A DNA stretch of 64,000 nucleotides, taken from contig JAUJMS010000004.1 in assembly GCA_030446745.1 (NCBI GenBank), positions 62,001 through 126,000 of the forward strand. Direction: 5' to 3'. The number at the start of each line of letters is the position of its first letter. Position 1 is the first letter of the stretch. The stretch is from Egibacteraceae bacterium. GTDB lineage: Bacteria > Actinomycetota > Nitriliruptoria > Euzebyales > Egibacteraceae. The position numbers and the translations under genes were made by a program. The notes beneath the pieces are model-generated. The model did not search any database. It saw only the letters and a list, made by a program, of their open reading frames with translations, and was not told the origin of the DNA. This document shows, one piece after another, positions 7,809 to 14,499 of this stretch.

Positions 7809-9134
7809 TCATGCCGCCGGCACGACCCGCGACAGCGCGTTGACGACGAGGTCGGTCGCGTCCTTGCTGCGCCGGTCCGTCAGGTGCGCCATGACGCGGA
7901 AGACGAACTCCATCAGCGTGCGCCGCGGCATGCCGAGCTCGGTGCACAGCCGCATCACGGTCGGGTGGCCCATGATCCGCAGGAACAGCCCCCCGAGGGT
8001 GTAGTAGCCGCCCCAGGCGTGCTCGACGGTGCGCTGGTAGGTCGCCAGGTCGGCGTCCCGGCGACTGTTCAGCGCGGCGTCGACGGCCTCGGCGGCGAAC
8101 GCCCCGGCCTCGATCGCGTAGCTGATGCCCTCGCCGTTGAATGGGTTGACCATGCCGGCGGCGTCGCCGACGAGCAGGGCGCCCTTGTGCACCGGCGGCT
8201 TGCGGTTGTGCCCCATCGGCAGGCCGGCGCTGCGCGGCCGTCCGACGAGCGTGTCCGGTCCCATGCCCCACGCCGGCGGGAAGCCGGCAACCCACTGCTC
8301 CAGCGTCGCGCGGTAGTTCGTCGAGCGGAAGTGCTTCGAGGTGTTGATCAGGCCCCAGCCGACGTTCACCACGCCGTCGGCGAGCGGGAAAATCCAGCCG
8401 TAGCCCGGCAGCAACTCGCGGTCGCGACGGGAACCGGCGGCGCCGGTCGCGTCGGTGGCGCGGGTGAGCTCCAGGAAGCCCTCCATCATCCCGGTGTCGC
8501 TGCGCGGGCTGCGGTAGTACGCGCGGATCGCGACCCCCATCGGCCGGCGCTCCAGGCGGTGCAGGCCGAGCTGGACCGCGAAGCGCGACGAGCCGCCGTC
8601 GGCCACGACGACGACCGGCGCGCGCACCGTGCCGGTGTGCTCGGCGCCGTCGGGGTCGGTGCGCCGGTACGCCACGCCGGCGACGCGCCGCTGCGACGTC
8701 GACGCGAACAGCGGCGCAGTCACCTCGGTGCCCTCCGCCAGGCGCGCCCCGGCGGCGACCGCGTTCCGGGCCAGCGTCTCGTCGAACAGCGACCGCGTCG
8801 CCGTGACCGAATGCGAGGGGAAGTCGTCGAGCTGCGGCCACGGCAGGTCGAGCACCACCCCGCCCCCGTACATCCGCAGCCCGTCCTGGCGGCGCCACCC
8901 CGGCAGGGTGCCCTCCGCCTCGGCGGTCAGGCCGAGGCCCCGCAGCGCCTTGACGGCACGAGGGGTCAGCCCGTCGCCACAGACCTTGTCGCGCGGAAAG
9001 CGCTCGCGCTCGACGAGGACGACGTCGCGGCCGGCACGCGCGAGCCACGTCGCCGCCGCCGCCCCCGCCGGGCCGGCCCCCACCACGATCGCGTCGGCGG
9101 CGTCATCGCGCACGCTGCCCGCCGCTCGTGGCAT
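7809..9134 (-). CDS. Geranylgeranyl reductase family FAD enzyme (menaquinone reductase-like, 441 aa)
   Basis: FAD-dependent oxidoreductase of the geranylgeranyl reductase family. The dinucleotide site GAGPAGAAAA is at residues 19-28, followed by DVVLVERERFPRDKVCGDGLTPRAV, which is the family signature, and a second FAD motif GDAAGMVNPFNGEGI. In mycobacteria the homolog MenJ saturates one isoprene unit of menaquinone; location in front of complex I and close to menG agrees with that role, but archaeal and plant members reduce other prenyl chains. The ATG has a good AAGGAG site 6 bases upstream. The Rex operator at 9155-9172 lies in its promoter. Confidence 0.88.
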   Translation of the reverse strand: MPRAAGSVRDDAADAIVVGAGPAGAAAATWLARAGRDVVLVERERFPRDKVCGDGLTPRAVKALRGLGLTAEAEGTLPGWRRQDGLRMYGGGVVLDLPWPQLDDFPSHSVTATRSLFDETLARNAVAAGARLAEGTEVTAPLFASTSQRRVAGVAYRRTDPDGAEHTGTVRAPVVVVADGGSSRFAVQLGLHRLERRPMGVAIRAYYRSPRSDTGMMEGFLELTRATDATGAAGSRRDRELLPGYGWIFPLADGVVNVGWGLINTSKHFRSTNYRATLEQWVAGFPPAWGMGPDTLVGRPRSAGLPMGHNRKPPVHKGALLVGDAAGMVNPFNGEGISYAIEAGAFAAEAVDAALNSRRDADLATYQRTVEHAWGGYYTLGGLFLRIMGHPTVMRLCTELGMPRRTLMEFVFRVMAHLTDRRSKDATDLVVNALSRVVPAA

Positions 9135-9680: not shown

Positions 9681-10406
9681 TCAGCGCCGGACGGCGGCGT
9701 GAACGGCGACGATGCCGCCGGTCAGGCTGCGCCAACGCACCCGTGACCAGCCCGCGCCAGCGATCATCGTCGCGAGCGCGGACTGGTCGGGCCACGCCTG
9801 GATGCTCGCGGCGAGGTAGCGGTACGCCCCCGGGTCGGAGGTCAGCAGGCGTGCCAGCGCCGGCATCGCCCCGACGAGGTAGCGCAGGTAGAGCGCGCGC
9901 AGCGGCGGCCACGTCGGCCGGCTGAACTCGAGCACGACGAGCCGCCCGCCGGGACGCACGACGCGGGCGAACTCGGCGAGTCCGGCGTGCGGGTCGGGCA
10001 GGTTGCGCAGGCCGAACGCGATCGTGACCGCGTCGACGCTCGCGTCGGCGAACGGCAGCCGCAACGCGTCCCCGTTGCACCACAGCAGCGCCGGGCCGCC
10101 GAAGGCTGCCCGATCGCGCCGGGCGCCGGTGACGGTCATCGCCTGGCTGAAGTCGAGGGCGACGACGCGGGCGCCGCTCGCGCGCAGCTCGAAGGCGAGA
10201 GCGCCGGTGCCGGCGGCGACGTCGACGACGGTCGCGCCCGGCGCCGGGGCGGCAGCAGCCGCCGCCACGCGCCGCCAGGACCGGTCGAGGCCCAGCGAGA
10301 AGATGGTGTTGGCGAGGTCGTAGCGCGGCGCGACGCGGTCGAACATCGCCTGCACCAGCGCCGCGTCCTTGCTCGCGGTCGGGCGCGGGTCGGGGACGGC
10401 GGTCAC
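9681..10406 (-). CDS. menG: Demethylmenaquinone methyltransferase (241 aa)
   Basis: Class I SAM methyltransferase of the UbiE/MenG family, which performs the last step of menaquinone synthesis. Visible are FDRVAPRYDLANTIFSLGLDRSWRR at the N-terminus, the SAM motif VVDVAAGTGALAF, the acidic residue in VALDFSQAM and the family motif AFGLRNLPDP with LEFSRP. The GTG start at 10406 overlaps the stop of the upstream amidohydrolase-like gene. It belongs functionally with the men genes 3-10 kb away. Confidence 0.94.
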   Translation of the reverse strand: MTAVPDPRPTASKDAALVQAMFDRVAPRYDLANTIFSLGLDRSWRRVAAAAAAPAPGATVVDVAAGTGALAFELRASGARVVALDFSQAMTVTGARRDRAAFGGPALLWCNGDALRLPFADASVDAVTIAFGLRNLPDPHAGLAEFARVVRPGGRLVVLEFSRPTWPPLRALYLRYLVGAMPALARLLTSDPGAYRYLAASIQAWPDQSALATMIAGAGWSRVRWRSLTGGIVAVHAAVRR

Positions 10407-11716
10407 GTCCGCTCGGCGTCGTCGTCCAGCGGTGGCCACGGCTCGTCGGGCGAGGCGCGCCGCGCCTTGCGCACGCCGGCGAGCACGGTGAGCACCTGGC
10501 GTCCGGCGCCGCGCTCGACGAGGTCGCGGTAGACCGTCGCGGGCGAGGTGTCCAGCGCGACGACGACGAGGTCGGCCGGCCGGCCGGGCGCCAGGACACC
10601 GCAGTGCTGCCCCCACCCGAGCGCGGCGGCGCCGTCGCCGGTCGCCAGACGGACCGCCGCCTCGGCGAGCGGCGCGGGACCGGTGTTCGACGGCCACGCG
10701 GACAGGCCGCGCTGGGCGGCCAACCGCGCCCACGCGGCCGCCTCGGCCAGGACGTCGAGCGACGGGACCGCGGCCGCGCTGCCGAGGCCGAGCGCGAGCG
10801 GTGTGCCCGCGGCCGCGTACCGCTCGAGCGGCGCGTCGCCGACGTGCAGGGCGGCGTCGGCGCGCGGCGTGCACACGACGGTGACACCGCGCGCGGCGAG
10901 CAGCCGCGCCTCACCGTCGTCGATGCGCACACCGCCGGCGAGCGTCGCCCCGGGCAGCAGCGCCCCAAGGTCGTCGAGGTAGCGCACCGGCGTCGTCCCG
11001 GCGCCCCCGTCGAGCCACTCGAAGCCGTAGCCGCGCGCCCGTGCGCGCTCGGCGAGCGGTCCGCTGCCGTCGCGCAGCGCCGCCGCCTCGGCGGGAGTCG
11101 TCGCCGCGCACAGCTGCAGCGGCGCGTCGCTGCGCTTGGCGAGCGCCGCCAGCGCCTGGAGCACGCCGGCGCCCAGCGAGGTCGTGCTGCGAGGTGCGAT
11201 GCCGACGCGGCGGCCGTCCGCCGGGAGGGTCAGCGCGTGCTCGACGGCGGTGAGGACCTCGTCGGCGGTCTCGACGTCGACGCCGCCGACATCGACCAAG
11301 GAGTCGCCCGCCAGGCCGGCGCGACACGCCGCGGGCACCCCCGCCCCACGCGTGACGACGTCGCCGGCGGCGGTCACGCCGGCGCGCAGCAGCGCGAGGA
11401 CGCCGCGGTGCGCCGAGCGGCCCCAACGTTGCTCGGGCCACGCCGCCGTCGTCGCACGCAGCGCCGCAGCCCAGCGGTGCAGGGGCGCCGGCGGCACGCT
11501 CGCGGCGGCGTCGGTCGACTCGACGTGGGTGCGTCCCGCGACGAGTCCGGGCAACAGAACGCCGTCGACGCGGTACGTGCGCTGCGCGGCGGGCGCCAAC
11601 GCCTCCGCGGCGCCCACCGCCACGATCGTGCCACCGTCGACGAGGACCGCGCCGTCGGCCAGCGGCGGACCGACCAGCGGGCAGACCACGTCGGCGGCGT
11701 ACAGCACGGCGGGCAT
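10403..11716 (-). CDS. Degenerate amidohydrolase-family protein lacking metal ligands (437 aa)
   Basis: Overall architecture is that of the TRZ/ATZ-type amidohydrolases that include aminodeoxyfutalosine deaminase and chlorohydrolases: an N-terminal strand region, LLPGLVAGRTHVES, APRSTTSLG, a region at LLAARGVTVVCTPRAD, LGLGSAAAVPSLDVLAEA and the closing GVLAPGRPADLVVV. But metal sites appear replaced: the first His of HxH is R62, the His of APH is R176, the HxAET site is C203-A-A-T-T, the following AHxxH is G261-G-V-R, and the catalytic Asp of GTDS is G312. A hydrolytic role is therefore unlikely. ATG at 11716 is preceded by TACACT and 6 bases, suggesting a leaderless start. Coupled to menG. 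Confidence 0.75.
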   Translation of the reverse strand: MPAVLYAADVVCPLVGPPLADGAVLVDGGTIVAVGAAEALAPAAQRTYRVDGVLLPGLVAGRTHVESTDAAASVPPAPLHRWAAALRATTAAWPEQRWGRSAHRGVLALLRAGVTAAGDVVTRGAGVPAACRAGLAGDSLVDVGGVDVETADEVLTAVEHALTLPADGRRVGIAPRSTTSLGAGVLQALAALAKRSDAPLQLCAATTPAEAAALRDGSGPLAERARARGYGFEWLDGGAGTTPVRYLDDLGALLPGATLAGGVRIDDGEARLLAARGVTVVCTPRADAALHVGDAPLERYAAAGTPLALGLGSAAAVPSLDVLAEAAAWARLAAQRGLSAWPSNTGPAPLAEAAVRLATGDGAAALGWGQHCGVLAPGRPADLVVVALDTSPATVYRDLVERGAGRQVLTVLAGVRKARRASPDEPWPPLDDDAERT

Positions 11717-11806: not shown

Positions 11807-12466
11807 GTGCGTCATGGGGTTGAAGAGAAGCCGCCGGCCGACGCCGGCGCAGCCGACGGACGGGCCCGCTGCGCGATGTGTGGAGCCGCCGTCCCCGTCG
11901 ACGACAGCGGCCGCTGCCCGCTCGGCCACGTCGTCGCCGTCCCGGTCGCGTCGACCCCTCCGCCGGTGGTTGAGGCCGCCCCCGCCTCGCGCCCCGCACC
12001 CGTCGCCCCGGCGGCAGCCGCGGAGCCGGTCTCCGTCGCCCCGGTCGCGCCGACCCCTGCGCCCCAGCCCGTCGCCGAAGACCCGTTCGCCCATCCCTAC
12101 GACGAGGTGCTCGCCTGGGACGCGCCGGCGCCCGACGCCCCGCCGGCTCCGGTCGTGCCGTTGCGGACGCCGCCTGCGGTTCCGCCGTCAGCGACCCCCC
12201 CACCGGCGGCGTCGACGGTCGACGCGTTCGAGCTGTTGAACTGGGACGAGGTCGACACGACGGGTTCGGCGCTCGACGTCGACGCCGCGACGCTGCCCGG
12301 GGCGACGACGCCGGCGTCTGACCGGGCCGCGATCCACGAGCTCAGCGAGCCCGACGACGACCGTGAGGACGCCGCCCGGGCGCGGCGCCGCGCCGCCGGC
12401 GTGCTCGGCGGGGCGCTGGCCGTGATGGGCGCCGTCGCCCTGTCGCTCGCCGCACTCCCCCTGTAA
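11807..12466 (+). CDS. Zinc-ribbon protein with Pro/Ala linker and C-terminal membrane anchor (219 aa)
   Basis: Not a named family I recognise. The N-terminus holds CAMCGAAVPVDDSGRCPLGH, a likely zinc-binding knuckle. A long Pro/Ala/Val-rich segment follows (about residues 50-140), then an acidic helix with an AFELLNWDEVD motif, and the C-terminus is a single hydrophobic helix (LGGALAVMGAVALSLAALPL) after a basic RARRRAAG cluster. So it is probably a tail-anchored inner-membrane protein facing the cytoplasm. Start is uncertain; GTG at 11807 keeps the zinc motif in frame. It lies before the MerR/menF pair on the same strand. Confidence 0.6.
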   Translation: MRHGVEEKPPADAGAADGRARCAMCGAAVPVDDSGRCPLGHVVAVPVASTPPPVVEAAPASRPAPVAPAAAAEPVSVAPVAPTPAPQPVAEDPFAHPYDEVLAWDAPAPDAPPAPVVPLRTPPAVPPSATPPPAASTVDAFELLNWDEVDTTGSALDVDAATLPGATTPASDRAAIHELSEPDDDREDAARARRRAAGVLGGALAVMGAVALSLAALPL

Positions 12467-12518: not shown

Positions 12519-12526
12519 GGGTGCTC

Positions 12527-13258
12527 GTGCGGTACCGAGTCGATGCGCTGGCTGCCCACTGCGGCGTGACGGTCGACACCGTGCGCTACTACCAGGCGAA
12601 GGGGTTGTTGCCGCGCCCGGTTCGTGAGGGACGGGTCGCCTGGTACGGCGACGACCACGTCGAGCGCCTCGGGCGGATCCGCGAGCTGCAGACCAAGGGC
12701 TTCAGCCTGGCGATGATCGGCCGGGCGCTGGCGGGCCAGCTCGACGCGACCGAGGAGGCGCTGGCAAGCGCGCTCGCGGGGCCGCTGCCGGGTGAGGCGC
12801 CGGCCGAGCGGCTCACCCTGGACGACCTCGCGCGGCGGACCGGCACGTCGACGACCCTGCTCGAGGCGTTGACGCGCGAGGGGTTGCTCGTCACGCGGGT
12901 CGACGACAGCGACGCCCCGTACACCGCCGCCGACGCCGAGGCACTGCGCGCGGGGCTCGCGCTGCTGGAGGCGGGCGTGCCGCTGTCCGAGCTGCTCGCG
13001 CTGGCTCGCGAGCACGACGCCGCCACCCGCGCGGTCGCCGAACGCGCCGTCGACCTGTTCGCCCGCTACGTCCGCGACCCGATCCGCGACACCGCCACGT
13101 CCGAGGAGCAGGCCGCCGAGCAGATGGTGGCGGCGCTGCACGCGATGCTGCCAGCCGTCGGTGCGGTCGTCGTCCACCATTTCCGCCGCCGGCTGCTCGC
13201 GGCGGCGCGGGCGCGGCTGACCGACGACCCCACCGCCGCCGAGGCGGAGACGGGATGA
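12527..13258 (+). CDS. MerR-family transcriptional regulator (243 aa)
   Basis: The N-terminal MerR helix-turn-helix is clear: VDALAAHCGVTVDTVRYYQAKGLLP, then GDDHVERLGRIRELQTKGFSLAMIG. A second, weaker winged-helix-like segment (LTLDDLARRTGTSTTLLEALTREGLL, about 95-120) follows, as in actinobacterial MerR proteins with two DNA-recognition modules. No cysteine-rich metal-sensing loop is evident, so the signal is unknown. Its stop overlaps the menF start (ATGA), so it probably governs isochorismate synthase and perhaps the rest of the men cluster. Confidence 0.85.
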   Translation: MRYRVDALAAHCGVTVDTVRYYQAKGLLPRPVREGRVAWYGDDHVERLGRIRELQTKGFSLAMIGRALAGQLDATEEALASALAGPLPGEAPAERLTLDDLARRTGTSTTLLEALTREGLLVTRVDDSDAPYTAADAEALRAGLALLEAGVPLSELLALAREHDAATRAVAERAVDLFARYVRDPIRDTATSEEQAAEQMVAALHAMLPAVGAVVVHHFRRRLLAAARARLTDDPTAAEAETG

Positions 13259-14499
13259 CCACGGCATCCGCGAGCACGGCGACGCTGACCGTTCGCACCG
13301 TCGAGGTCGACGCGCCCGACGACCTGCTCGCCCTGCTCGCCGACCCCGCGAGCGTCGCGTGGATCCGCCGCGGGGACGGCCTGGTCGGCTGGGGCCGCGC
13401 GGCGCGTATCGACGTCGGCGCAGGGGCGGACCGTTTCGCGCGCGCGACCGCCGCGCTGGCGGCGCTGTTCGACCGCGCCGTCGTCGACGACGAGGTCGGC
13501 GTGCCGGGCACCGGACCCGTCGCCTTCGGCAGCATCACGTTCGACCCGCGGTCGGCTGGCTCGGTGCTCGTCGTGCCGGCGGTGGTGCTCGGGCGGCGCG
13601 ACGGCCGTGCCTGGCTGACGGTCACCGGCGACACGCCGAGGGACGGCGGCGTGCCGCCCGGGCCGCAGGCGTTGCCGGCGCCGGGGCGGGTGCGCTACGC
13701 CGGCGCGTCGCTGCCCGAGCTTGCCTGGCTCGACGCCGTCGCGACCGCCGCGCGTGCGGTGCGCGCCGGCGAGCTCGACAAGGTGGTGCTCGCGCGCGAC
13801 CTGCACGTGTGGTCCGACGCCCCGTTGGACCCACGCGTGCTCGCACGCCGCCTCGCCGAGCGCTTCCCCGACTGCTTCACGTTCGTGTGCGAGGGGTTGG
13901 TCGGCGCGACGCCGGAGCTGCTGGTGCGCCGGACCGGCACCGACGTCGAGTCGCTCGTGCTGGCCGGCTCCGCGCCCCGCGGTCGCGACGCCGCCGACGA
14001 CGCGCGGCGCGGCGCGGCGCTGCTCGCGTCGCACAAGGACCGCCGCGAACACGACCTGGCGGTCGCGTCGGTGCGCGACGTCCTCGCGCCGCGCTGCGGG
14101 CAGCTGGCCACGGACCCGCAGCCGCACCTGCTGCGCCTGGCGAACGTCGCGCACCTCGCCACCGCGGTGCGCGGGCGGCTGAGCGGAACGCCGACCGCCC
14201 TGGAGCTCGCCGCGGCCCTGCATCCGACCGCCGCGGTGTGCGGCACCCCGACCGCCGTCGCGCTGGAGCGCATCCGCGTGCTCGAGCGGATGGACCGCGG
14301 GCGCTACGCCGGACCGGTCGGCTGGGTCGACGCGCGCGGCGACGGCGAGTGGGGCATCGCCCTGCGCTGCGCCGAGGTCGACGGCACGCGGGCGCGGCTG
14401 TTCGCCGGCGCGGGCATCGTCGGGGCGTCGCTGCCGGAGGCGGAGCTGGAAGAGACGCGCCTGAAGCTGCGCGCGATGCAGTCGGCGTTGGAGGGCTGA
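13255..14499 (+). CDS. menF: Isochorismate synthase (414 aa)
   Basis: Chorismate-utilising enzyme that opens the classical menaquinone pathway (chorismate to isochorismate). Conserved family segments are LDKVVLARDL, FPDCFTFVCEG, GATPELLVRR, SLVLAGSAPRG, SHKDRREH, the LHPTAAVCGTP signature with the catalytic region and GPVGWVDARGDGEWGIALRC at the C-terminus, with AGAGIVGASLPEAELEET last. Translationally coupled to the MerR gene; ends 23 bases from the convergent menD. Confidence 0.94.
   Translation: MTTASASTATLTVRTVEVDAPDDLLALLADPASVAWIRRGDGLVGWGRAARIDVGAGADRFARATAALAALFDRAVVDDEVGVPGTGPVAFGSITFDPRSAGSVLVVPAVVLGRRDGRAWLTVTGDTPRDGGVPPGPQALPAPGRVRYAGASLPELAWLDAVATAARAVRAGELDKVVLARDLHVWSDAPLDPRVLARRLAERFPDCFTFVCEGLVGATPELLVRRTGTDVESLVLAGSAPRGRDAADDARRGAALLASHKDRREHDLAVASVRDVLAPRCGQLATDPQPHLLRLANVAHLATAVRGRLSGTPTALELAAALHPTAAVCGTPTAVALERIRVLERMDRGRYAGPVGWVDARGDGEWGIALRCAEVDGTRARLFAGAGIVGASLPEAELEETRLKLRAMQSALEG

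Follow-up and report, generated by a model that had tools for sequence, protein, structure and literature searches.

Why would a bacterium with the classical menaquinone (Men) pathway keep, directly upstream of menG, an open reading frame for a deaminase-like protein whose catalytic residues have been replaced? The window, by which we mean the whole 64,000-nucleotide stretch of DNA analysed here, raises this question on its minus strand, where the pseudo-deaminase gene is followed by menG, a MenJ/geranylgeranyl-reductase-like gene and then nuoA onward. On the divergent side lie genes for a MerR-family regulator and menF, then menD, C, A, B and E (Table 1). The classical men genes that a preliminary description of this DNA had reported are present, as is the intact frame over 437 residues.

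Table 1. Positions in the window of the genes and site residues discussed in the text
Feature	Position	Strand	Basis or remark
Pseudo-deaminase ORF, amidohydrolase fold, 437 aa, ATG start	10403..11716	minus	
4-nt stop/start overlap (GTGA) of pseudo-deaminase with menG	10403..10406	minus	
menG, demethylmenaquinone methyltransferase; GTG start inferred from overlap	9681..10406	minus	
MenJ/geranylgeranyl-reductase-family protein, 3' of menG	7809..9134	minus	NCBIfam: MenJ cut-off missed, subfamily GG-red cut-off passed
MerR-family regulator, divergent from pseudo-deaminase	12521..13258	plus	
menF-type isochorismate synthase	13255..14499	plus	TIGR00543 above its cut-off
R62, where active relatives have first His of HxH	11531..11533	minus	alignment
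H64, second His of HxH, still present	11525..11527	minus	alignment
R176 (APR176), replaces APH histidine, beta-4 end, substrate side	11189..11191	minus	alignment
C203 (C203-A-A-T206-T), replaces beta-5 metal His	11108..11110	minus	alignment
T206, replaces beta-5 catalytic Glu	11099..11101	minus	alignment
G261 (G261GVR), replaces beta-6 His	10934..10936	minus	alignment
G312 (GLG312S), replaces beta-8 metal Asp	10781..10783	minus	alignment

By fold the ORF belongs to the amidohydrolase superfamily. The Pfam profile Amidohydro_1 matches residues 53-411 with 78.3 bits against a gathering score of 25 (8.4e-22), and an AlphaFold2 (AF2) model built with 25 homologs as input (pLDDT 95, pTM 0.93) is a complete, distorted TIM barrel with a small beta domain, confident throughout the barrel. 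Foldseek matches this model to MTA/SAH deaminases, triazine hydrolases and the Helicobacter pylori aminofutalosine deaminase, and among PDB entries Deinococcus DR_0824 is the closest in sequence. The site tells a different story from that of a metal-dependent deaminase of the TRZ/ATZ type, in which HxH, the beta-5 His and the beta-8 Asp are metal ligands and the beta-5 Glu and beta-6 His are catalytic: of these residues only H64 survives. The preliminary description had all metal ligands replaced; this holds for five of the six ligand or catalytic positions and for the substrate-side APH histidine, but not for H64, and each substitution that it named (R62, APR176, C203AATT, G261GVR, GLG312S) is found. 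The altered positions sit at the ends of barrel strands in the AF2 model. This model and alignments with active deaminases agree in placing no intact ligands at alternative positions, so the structural check suggested earlier recovers none, and misalignment masking an intact site is ruled out.

We sought orthologs in 30 genomes of the order Nitriliruptorales and found them in 18, with full-length copies 53-63% identical to the window protein. Linkage to menG in relatives, which the preliminary description had singled out for checking, is complete: the ortholog lies directly upstream of menG in 18 of 18 carriers, among them G002 and G013, whose contigs break within the pseudo-deaminase gene. 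Fourteen orthologs are full-length open frames. Four genomes (G019, G018, G001 and G022) have menG without the gene, and clusters that lack it contain no remnant except, in G009, a C-terminal piece at the end of a contig; beyond the order, other genomes of the class gave weak, distant matches only. The G006 copy (L077:4116-5318) is the extreme of the clade, very divergent and missing barrel segments, with the C-terminal block retained and an N-terminal piece at 39% identity. The G016 copy carries a stop and a loss of frame, which may be a sequencing error because menJ on that contig is likewise split over several frames.

In every clade ortholog the catalytic set is incomplete. The 41 homologs compared from outside the clade all have histidine at both HxH positions and at the beta-5 position, and the beta-6 His and beta-8 Asp are each present in 39. 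Among 17 clade members (14 full-length), by comparison, the first HxH histidine is R, A or G in 4, the second is A, V, T or R in 11, the beta-5 His is replaced by C, E, R, A, P or S in 11, and the beta-8 Asp is kept in 3, the rest having G, E, S or A. The first HxH histidine and the beta-6 His are mostly retained, the latter being lost among the full-length members in the window protein alone. Both the missing subset and the replacement residues differ from lineage to lineage, contrary to the earlier suggestion that orthologs might keep the same substitutions. When columns are ranked by variability, the second HxH histidine, APH, the beta-5 His and Glu and the beta-8 Asp lie between the 83rd and 97th percentiles (permutation p 0.0008, for five positions picked after the alignment was seen); a fairer test takes all seven site positions jointly and gives p 0.023.

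The ortholog closest to an intact site, in G020, keeps HTH, APH, HCAE and AH, with GTES for GTDS as its sole change. G020, G021, G023 and G027 all retain HxH and the histidines of beta-5 and beta-6, with Glu as an acidic residue at beta-8; the broken sequence of G013 agrees with this for the part that it covers, and these five proteins may still bind metal. The clade could be mixed, with G020 and G021/G023/G027 still active or metal-binding after an Asp to Glu exchange and the others, including the window protein, functionless. The single difference in G020 speaks for such a division. However, active relatives hardly vary at the beta-8 Asp, G021/G023/G027 also lack the catalytic Glu, and low dN/dS persists in lineages with more losses, and we consider a mixed clade rather unlikely. 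We infer instead that all catalysis has been lost.

Loss of the site has not been accompanied by loss of selection. As the preliminary description had proposed to check, dN/dS is low and close to that of menG: 0.080 versus 0.038 for the G024-G029 pair and 0.17-0.19 versus 0.16-0.19 among G021/G023/G027. Values for close pairs run from 0.08 to 0.28, within the range of menG and the cluster neighbours, and the window branch has about 0.35-0.39 against 0.31-0.48 for menG, a rough comparison since synonymous sites are partly saturated. In the clade 102 of 437 columns are invariant, and 47 of these are clade-specific. Catalytic residues lost under persisting purifying selection are the marks of a selected pseudoenzyme. 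The earlier claim that the open frame argues for function was thus right about function, on the grounds of dN/dS and ortholog conservation, but not in its reasoning, since spurious ORFs of 400-700 aa are common in this GC-rich window and make an open frame weak evidence. A decaying pseudogene, the relic of a pathway switch, would account for the mosaic ligand loss, the barrel deletions of G006 and the broken frame of G016. Set against the dN/dS values, the invariant columns, the full-length frames and the possible sequencing error in G016, this idea is barely credible and is refuted for most of the clade. Recent decay, which the preliminary description would have read from a close ortholog with a full metal site, is ruled out by the dN/dS values and by the absence of such a site in every ortholog, G020 being the nearest.

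Where selection acts is informative. In active relatives the entropy of pocket-side columns is well below that of other columns (0.39 versus 1.09 and 0.92 versus 1.37), whereas in the clade the two are nearly equal (1.08 versus 1.10). Conservation outside the pocket is similar in the clade and in active relatives; the clade lacks the pocket excess. Judged from these alignments, the pocket is free to vary and the scaffold is constrained. This pattern bears on the idea that a nucleoside such as S-adenosylhomocysteine (SAH), the product of MenG, is bound in the metal-free pocket and that the protein regulates methylation in this way. The relatives do bind adenosine nucleosides (4f0r and 7lkk are among the structural matches), SAH is produced next door by MenG and the fold of the window protein is intact, but pocket-side columns, with the APH position among them, vary as much as almost any in the clade, which would be unexpected for a shared small ligand. 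We find such a sensor improbable.

The menG start overlaps or abuts the pseudo-deaminase stop in most orthologs, frequently by 4 nt, and the C-terminal block RQVLTVLAGVRKARR is highly conserved. Both features could suggest that the ORF acts in cis only, as a leader whose translation is coupled to that of menG. Yet protein-level conservation extends along the whole length, spacers precede menG in several orthologs, and at the 3' end the identity of fourfold sites (0.45 and 0.39) does not exceed the mean of 0.46 for the gene. With synonymous-site conservation absent there, the conserved C-terminus is a protein-level signal; nucleotide-level constraint at the junction is ruled out, and a role confined to a leader is very improbable.

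A folded, selected and chemically dead protein whose constant, translationally overlapping downstream neighbour is menG leads us to favor a partner role. We envision a scenario in which an amidohydrolase of the nucleoside-deaminase branch lost its deaminase site while selection retained the folded barrel, would be translated together with MenG through the overlapping stop and start, and most likely scaffolds or stabilises MenG or the surrounding late menaquinone enzymes. We give this scenario about even chances. More generally, the data point to a structural or regulatory role near menG, in which the protein would bind MenG and could influence methylation. Such a partner could not be obligatory for MenG in general, as sister genomes have menG without it. 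Against the scenario, MenG works alone in most bacteria, the five orthologs named above may still bind metal, and shared regulation alone could account for the adjacency.

From which enzyme did this scaffold derive? An aminodeoxyfutalosine deaminase belongs in a cell with the futalosine pathway, which the host order of the window protein does not offer. PF02621 (MqnA/D) is absent from G000, a MAG that is 86% complete, and elsewhere in the order there are one marginal match (G022, 32.9 bits) and sub-threshold matches in G002 and G004. MqnC is above the cut-off in 0 of the 30 genomes; weaker matches, which are adjacent pairs of domains within long ORFs, we take to be radical-SAM proteins of F420 synthesis of the CofG/CofH type. 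A hidden futalosine pathway is ruled out by these negative results, and the order, judged by gene content, lacks convincing MqnA/D or MqnC and uses the Men pathway. Outside the order but within its class, the genome G050 (L029, L033) has mqn genes, so that mqn occurs in the class.

The top-scoring homologs beyond the order sit in mqnE-mqnA-mqnC clusters, with site motifs intact in nearly all, and within the phylum the closest relatives found with an intact site are deaminases of such futalosine clusters. A cleaned tree groups the clade with an intact G026 paralog and two mqn-linked groups (f46 and f22) with support of 97/98. Because long branches meet in it, mqn-linked deaminases do not form one clade and the same grouping had support of 52/15 in a first tree, descent from the futalosine pathway is moderately supported, plausible rather than demonstrated. 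Placing the clade together with the MTA/SAH-like group is rejected by an AU test (p 0.0005), which rules out membership among MTA/SAH deaminases. The menG step is common to both menaquinone pathways. Tentatively, an ancestral futalosine-pathway deaminase may have stayed beside menG through the switch to the Men pathway, repeatedly lost its chemistry and been retained in a structural role with MenG, a history that we hold possible but doubtful. If the futalosine origin is true, the clade would also preserve, at the molecular level, a trace of the switching between menaquinone pathways that has been reported in Actinomycetota (PMC13386864); if the structural-partner reading is true as well, a fossil of one pathway would serve as a scaffold in the other.

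Several known systems resemble parts of this picture. Aminodeoxyfutalosine deaminase (MqnX/AFLDA) shares the fold, the H. pylori enzyme (7lkk) giving a TM-score by target of 0.83-0.84, and the actinobacterial mqn-cluster deaminases are the clade's companions in score and in the cleaned tree; unlike MqnX/AFLDA, the clade has lost its site, its order is without mqn genes and its gene lies beside menG among classical men genes. MTA/SAH and 5'-deoxyadenosine deaminases of the TRZ/ATZ family share the fold and a family-level sequence match, but differ in their intact site and are set apart by the AU test. The collapsin response mediator proteins are likewise non-enzymatic relatives of an amidohydrolase-superfamily enzyme; unlike the present clade, they are eukaryotic, derived from dihydropyrimidinase and cytoskeletal in function. 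A precedent for the mechanism comes from the ATCase of Pseudomonas aeruginosa, whose activity requires an inactive dihydroorotase chain (pyrX/pDHO) that holds the enzyme together, an amidohydrolase-superfamily protein kept for an enzyme of the same pathway (PMC7053772). The clade differs in subfamily and in partner enzyme, and its partner role is putative, drawn from linkage and overlap with menG.

A literature search for menG with amidohydrolase returned only papers that mention both words in passing, and, judged by the open literature searched, a protein partner for the menaquinone methyltransferase of bacteria would be a novelty. Pseudoenzymes are usually found after total ligand loss; in this clade the scaffold stays under constant selection while the site has been lost along different routes in about 17 orthologs, and the purpose of a retained dead enzyme therefore becomes directly testable.

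Some further genes deserve mention. The G026 paralog (L079:7557-8906) has an intact site, is about 36% identical and adjoins two S-adenosylhomocysteinase-like ORFs, judged by eye from translation. In f46, another actinobacterial family, menG has as its immediate neighbour a deaminase of the MTA/SAH-like group with an intact site (L130:6034-7392 and L133:5900-7288), an independent link of menG with the amidohydrolase fold. Within the window, an ORF divergent from the pseudo-deaminase (11837-12466, plus strand) encodes a CxxC-type motif, a proline-rich middle and a hydrophobic C-terminus; it has no NCBIfam match and a 37% relative in L080. The gene for the MerR-family regulator overlaps menF by 4 nt (12521-14499, plus strand), and this pair is conserved across the order; the MerR-family protein is a candidate regulator of menaquinone synthesis.
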